From contig NZ_MPOB01000001.1 of assembly GCF_002148795.1 (NCBI RefSeq), positions 186,001 to 250,000 on the forward strand: a stretch of DNA of 64,000 nt. The letters run 5' to 3'. Both the position numbers and the translations under genes were made by a program. The stretch is from Oceanibaculum nanhaiense. GTDB taxonomy: Bacteria > Pseudomonadota > Alphaproteobacteria > Oceanibaculales > Oceanibaculaceae. The notes beneath the pieces were generated by a model. The model worked only from the letters and a program-made list of their open reading frames with translations, was not told the DNA's origin and did no database searches. Shown here piece after piece: positions 50,028-50,102 of this stretch (position 1 is its first letter; each line of letters opens with the position of its first letter).

Positions 50028-50102
50028 GGAGTCGTTTATAGACTCCTGACTCTGAACCCTTTTTCGCTTGACGGCGAGTCGGCCTCGACTCACATTGGCC
50101 GA
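50028..50102 (+). promoter_or_regulatory. ccrM upstream region with five GANTC sites in two inverted repeats
   Basis: Five GANTC sites start at 50029, 50041, 50048, 50076 and 50087, all within 63 bases. Four form two perfect inverted repeats: GGAGTC/GACTCC at 50028-50033 and 50041-50046 (seven-base spacer), and GAGTCG/CGACTC at 50076-50081 and 50086-50091 (four-base spacer). GANTC is the target of the CcrM enzyme encoded next. The Caulobacter ccrM promoter also carries GANTC sites whose methylation tunes expression. Confidence 0.75.

Follow-up and report, generated by a model that had tools for sequence, protein, structure and literature searches.

The GANTC sites crowded in front of ccrM in Oceanibaculum nanhaiense probably belong to a methylation-sensing promoter through which ccrM regulates itself, its state following replication and, in this genus, being read without GcrA; we place the probability of this reading at about three in four. 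Comparison among relatives shows the features on which it builds at the level of the DNA: the promoter architecture, one GANTC site at a fixed position, a variable upstream cluster, hairpins that are not conserved, and no detectable GcrA.

Architecture of the ccrM promoter

Within the window, that is, the whole 64-kb stretch of DNA analysed here, ccrM lies directly downstream of rnhB (Table 1). The rnhB stop codon (TGA, 50025-50027) and the ccrM ATG at 50103 are separated by an intergenic gap of 75 bp (50028-50102), which holds GANTC at 50029, 50041, 50048, 50076 and 50087. Further sites lie nearby, at 50017 in the end of rnhB and at 50117 and 50135 in the first codons of ccrM. The background is depleted, with 172 GANTC in the window against 267 expected from shuffles, as is usual in CcrM-bearing genomes (PMC3973325). 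At least five sites in a given 75 bases have a Poisson chance of 2e-6, and any such cluster within 64 kb a chance of 0.007; the gap is the densest GANTC cluster of the window. The original prediction had placed five sites directly ahead of ccrM; their positions are confirmed, and their density is far above chance. The ccrM product matches the NCBIfam CcrM model with an E value of 5e-188 and 624 bits, under the model's Caulobacter-specific cut-off of 830, and shares 93%, 84% and 83% identity with the CcrM of three congeners and 72% with that of Nisaea nitritireducens. Upstream of rnhB lies a gene for a PA0069-family radical SAM protein (48205-49338; NCBIfam NF033668, E 1e-160).

Table 1. Features of the rnhB-ccrM region (window coordinates).
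Feature	Position	Strand	Evidence
rnhB, ribonuclease HII, upstream neighbour of ccrM	49374..50027	+	NCBIfam NF000595, E 7e-71
Upstream CcrM-site cluster (50017, 50029, 50041, 50048), with inverted repeat 1 (50027-50047)	50017..50052	+	GANTC enrichment in 78 promoters
-35 element TTGACG of the ccrM promoter	50068..50073	+	In 4/4 genomes of the genus; fixed 19 nt to site 2
CcrM site 1, GAGTC, promoter spacer	50076..50080	+	65/78 promoters with a second site, offset 7-11 from TTGAC
CcrM site 2, GACTC, abutting the -10	50087..50091	+	Offset 19 from TTGAC
-10 element CACATT (A-11, T-7)	50091..50096	+	A at offset 24, T at offset 28
Predicted transcription start, at the ccrM ATG (leaderless mRNA)	50103	+	Predicted from its place seven bases past the -10 T
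ccrM, GANTC adenine methyltransferase	50103..51209	+	N6_N4_Mtase (PF01555) and RAMA (PF18755) domains

Through a class-wide search, the regions upstream of 146 ccrM genes, belonging to 70 families, were collected and read from a uniform start. In this sample, which favours ccrM genes nearer the window's own and in which only a perfect TTGAC was counted, a GANTC stands exactly 19 nt from TTGAC in 78 of the 146 upstream regions, representing 41 of the 70 families, whereas mononucleotide shuffles give 0.24 regions with GANTC at offsets 18-20. A GANTC at offset 8-10 occurs in 84 cases, and the adjacent positions are almost empty. In all 78 promoters, offset 24 holds an A and offset 28 a T, bases that played no part in their selection. 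With the usual 17-bp spacer, these offsets coincide with positions -11 and -7 of a -10 hexamer, which identifies the element as a sigma70 promoter. Read from these upstream regions, the ccrM promoter consensus is sigma70-type, TTGAC-N3-GANTC-N6-GACTC-ANNNT (or N5/N4 in place of N3/N6). The distance of site 2 to the -35 is constant, and site 1 slides by 2 bases, mostly between offsets 8 and 10. Promoters with site 2 were found in named records of Azospirillum, Niveispirillum, Dongia, Fodinicurvata, Paracoccus, Salipiger and Micavibrio. The exact site 2 is missing from the other 68 of the 146 regions, and the arrangement differs in many Rhizobiales and Caulobacterales.

In the window, both spacer sites fall between TTGACG and CACATT, and the -10 hexamer opens with the last C of site 2 (50091). 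A generic promoter scan of the region called no promoter, because the -10 is non-consensus. Since the first in-frame start codon lies at offset 35-37 in 29 of the 78 relatives, a leaderless or near-leaderless ccrM message is, on this prediction, common among them. A CtrA box (TTAA-N7-TTAA) was sought upstream of the window's ccrM, and 49990-50102 contains no TTAA. Exact CtrA boxes are present in five sampled ccrM regions of the class, all of them without the GANTC promoter.

The architecture is also specific. Among 31 genomes searched, TTGAC-N14-GANTC-ANNNT has about one match per genome, at ccrM, while reversed control patterns gave one match in total. Additional matches of the full pattern elsewhere in the genomes often lie inside open frames; the window genome has one further match (G000:C11:44614), absent from the three congeners. 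Judged by these searches, each genome has the full pattern almost only at ccrM.

Upstream of the -35, the sites are abundant and loosely placed. Over the 90 nt before it, the 78 promoters carry 27.9 GANTC per kb, an enrichment of about 8-fold; over that stretch, seven composition-matched motifs reach 1.4-5.0/kb and shuffles 3.5/kb, and in the 60 nt beyond this zone GANTC falls to 1.7/kb. At least one extra GANTC occurs in the 60 nt upstream in 72 of the 78 promoters. The exact positions of the window's cluster are retained only in the closest relative (G003), not in the other two congeners (G001 and G002). The original prediction had proposed comparing the region across relatives, and the comparison revealed one GANTC fixed relative to the -35 and -10, with a GANTC cluster upstream in most. 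That the sites are part of the ccrM promoter, as had been suggested, is supported by this fixed position.

A proposed methylation switch and its reader

Under the reading that we favour, passage of the replication fork through ccrM would convert fully methylated sites into hemimethylated ones and thereby alter promoter strength; newly made CcrM would then remethylate the sites, closing the loop and producing a replication-coupled burst of CcrM. The adenines of site 2 that CcrM methylates lie at about -15 on the top strand and about -13 on the bottom strand. Both lie beside the -10, at the border of the element that sigma contacts and from which melting starts, so that methylation could plausibly act on RNA polymerase directly, with no reader protein needed. 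The reader in this genus may thus be RNA polymerase itself, or some reader other than GcrA. The original prediction had seen in the density and pairing of the sites a stronger methylation switch. Its promoter location and the conserved placement of the sites hold, and the sites do look like such a switch.

Full methylation more likely lowers than raises the activity of the ccrM promoter, a sign that, together with the timing, we infer for this organism. Repression is the probable outcome because Caulobacter ccrM is transcribed only from the hemimethylated chromosome (PMC2217572) and ccrM itself is listed as most probably methylation-regulated (PMC3973325). The opposite sign is possible, since a conserved CGACTC in the Caulobacter ftsZ promoter, where it lies in the spacer, and in the mipZ promoter activates when methylated (PMC3708114).

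Methylated GANTC is known to be read by the sigma70 cofactor GcrA (PMC3667746, PMC7987155). No protein with the GcrA domain (Pfam PF07750) was found in the window genome or the three congeners (G000-G003), even at E<=10. Our own profile, based on a diverse set of 11 GcrA proteins that included short forms, returned only chance-level fragments in these four genomes, with positive controls at 6.5e-46 (G010) and 5e-41 (G103). Loss of the gene to an assembly gap is unlikely because four genomes are involved, each 91-99% complete. The genus therefore seems, from these profile searches, to lack GcrA, although such searches could overlook a strongly diverged reader. Site 2 is kept in 18 of 30 ccrM-bearing genomes without GcrA (12 families), against 58 of 109 with GcrA. 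All 18 of the GcrA-less promoters with site 2 have A-11 and T-7, and the GANTC density upstream of them is 30.2/kb. GcrA-less genomes thus retain site 2, the -10 bases and the cluster, and therefore the architecture is independent of GcrA. Genomes that are GcrA-less and CcrM-positive occur in well over ten further families of the sample.

These observations allow a broader proposal, which we hold tentatively and at slightly less than even odds: in many Alphaproteobacteria, whole GcrA-less lineages included, CcrM methylation of the ccrM promoter, and of an ftsB-like promoter, may be read independently of GcrA, through m6A beside the -10 that acts on sigma70 RNA polymerase or on another reader. 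If so, the ccrM self-switch would be older than the GcrA circuit, or independent of it.

Alternative readings of the sites

The most conventional alternative is activation of the GcrA type, in which a GcrA-like cofactor of sigma70, drawn in by methylated spacer sites, turns ccrM on, with positive feedback. Both spacer sites fit the extended motif YGAKTCG/K on the proper strand (CGAGTCG at 50075-50081, and TGAGTCG on the minus strand of 50086-50092), a GANTC in the spacer is the architecture of GcrA promoters (PMC7987155, PMC3708114, PMC4287350), and site 2 is common at ccrM in GcrA-containing genomes. However, GcrA went undetected in the genus, site 2 is as frequent without GcrA as with it, and even in GcrA-containing genomes the -10-abutting pattern is almost private to ccrM, which together leave this alternative unlikely. 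A plain GcrA promoter had been the first expectation and was weakened once GcrA was not detected in the four genomes. It is quite improbable that MucR, rather than replication, sets the promoter state by occupying the cluster and shielding its GANTC sites from methylation. Each genome of the genus has two MucR genes, and in Caulobacter and Sinorhizobium some GANTC sites stay hypomethylated because of MucR, but the same study found the functions of hypomethylated promoters to be generally unconserved between species (PMC5172544), whereas the ccrM arrangement is conserved across families. The notion that GANTC is merely tolerated between genes, so that the cluster would be meaningless, can draw on an average intergenic over-representation of more than 1.5-fold in the class (PMC3973325). 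It can be virtually dismissed given the gap between GANTC and its composition-matched controls in the same 90 nt, the strict offset of 19 and the unselected -10 bases.

Control by cruciform or RNA hairpin, which had been offered beside the methylation switch, did not survive the comparison. Four of the five sites do form two perfect inverted repeats with a GANTC in each arm, as had been described: AGGAGTC (50027-50033) with GACTCCT (50041-50047), and GAGTCG (50076-50081) with CGACTC (50086-50091). The perfection of such repeats is weak evidence by itself because GANTC is quasi-palindromic, and two sites with complementary N bases yield a 5-bp repeat for free. Across the sample, the N bases are complementary in 18 of 65 spacer pairs, against 16.3 expected (P 0.29), and in 14 of 58 pairs of upstream neighbours, against 14.4 expected. 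In G001 and G002, the spacer pair reads GAATC...GACTC, which breaks the symmetry and keeps both methylation sites; hairpin 1 is missing from both and occurs only in G003. As far as these sequences tell, the methylation sites are conserved and the hairpins are not, since the complementarity of paired sites is at chance level; the hairpins would then be by-products of paired quasi-palindromic sites. As RNA, hairpin 1 has a folding energy of -11.5 kcal/mol and folds better than shuffles (z -3.0), which, with the perfection of both repeats, is what speaks for their acting as cruciforms, leader RNA hairpins or an rnhB terminator. The terminator scan found nothing terminator-like at the region (no stem-loop with a T run), and the Rfam scan returned no match of note. 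Repeat 2 is unlikely to form a hairpin in RNA, as transcription is predicted to begin only downstream of it. Arms of 6-7 bp are also short for cruciform extrusion, and a role for the repeats as such is hardly credible. An intrinsic terminator or a structured RNA leader is disfavoured by the lack of a terminator-like site and by the chance-level complementarity.

Relation to known systems and similar promoters

In Caulobacter, ccrM is driven by CtrA, and the short burst of CcrM is usually explained through CtrA and GcrA. The window promoter shares with the Caulobacter crescentus ccrM promoter the presence of GANTC in the promoter of the methylase's own gene; the Caulobacter promoter is one whose transcription is tied to the hemimethylated state, so that methylation control of ccrM is already known there (PMC2217572). 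The likeness to Caulobacter that had been noted thus stands for the GANTC sites and stops at the driver. Here the promoter has a TTGAC -35, two spacer sites, one of them locked to the -10, and no CtrA box, and it stands in a genus without detectable GcrA. In Caulobacter vibrioides records (L263, L284), GACTCATGATTC or the similar GACTCCATGATTC stands ahead of ccrM and resembles the GACTC-ANNNT core; the known Caulobacter ccrM sites may, from this resemblance, likewise lie at a -10-like element.

The GcrA/CcrM sigma70 promoters of ftsZ, mipZ and ctrA P1 are similar in that GANTC lies in the core promoter, often in the spacer, in a context like YGAKTCG/K, and GANTC between the -35 and -10 of cell-cycle promoters was already known (PMC4287350). 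The ccrM promoter differs from them in that site 2 adjoins the -10 with a constant spacing seen almost only at ccrM, that two spacer sites are joined by an upstream cluster, and that GcrA is undetected in the genus. Brilli et al. (2010; PMC2877005) surveyed 37 Alphaproteobacteria for GANTC ahead of cell-cycle genes; they gave counts per promoter and judged methylation control not derivable, and the text consulted does not describe a fixed promoter architecture. We found no report, in the open-access literature, of a fixed -10-abutting site across the ccrM promoters of families or of its persistence without GcrA. Its occurrence at ccrM in 41 families and its retention without GcrA suggest a self-contained methylation timer. 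The pattern also offers a sequence signature for locating ccrM promoters, and GcrA-less hosts are natural settings in which to seek another methyl reader.

Related arrangements occur at other genes. Nine GANTC stand directly before an ftsB/divIC-like cell-division gene near pdhA in the window genome (G000:C9:1-165; L350, L352), with a counterpart in a congener (G001:C18, about 213944-214100; L349, L355), where eno is also nearby. By eye, about 15 of 23 relatives, GcrA-less ones included, have TTGAC-N3 to N8-GANTC-N5 to N9-GATTC near the start of this gene, and TGT often stands just before the GATTC, as in an extended -10. This pattern suggests that methylation-read promoters in the genus would not be confined to ccrM. 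In IMG/VR, phage contigs with the ccrM promoter pattern carry it mostly within genes or in unrelated phage sequence. Three related phage contigs (L334, L336, L340) have TTGAC-N3-GAGTC-N6-GACTCANNNT before a small gene whose product starts with MPLQ or MSLQ. One contig filed as viral (L347:3897-3925) bears a Rhodobacterales-like ccrM promoter at its end and is probably host DNA.
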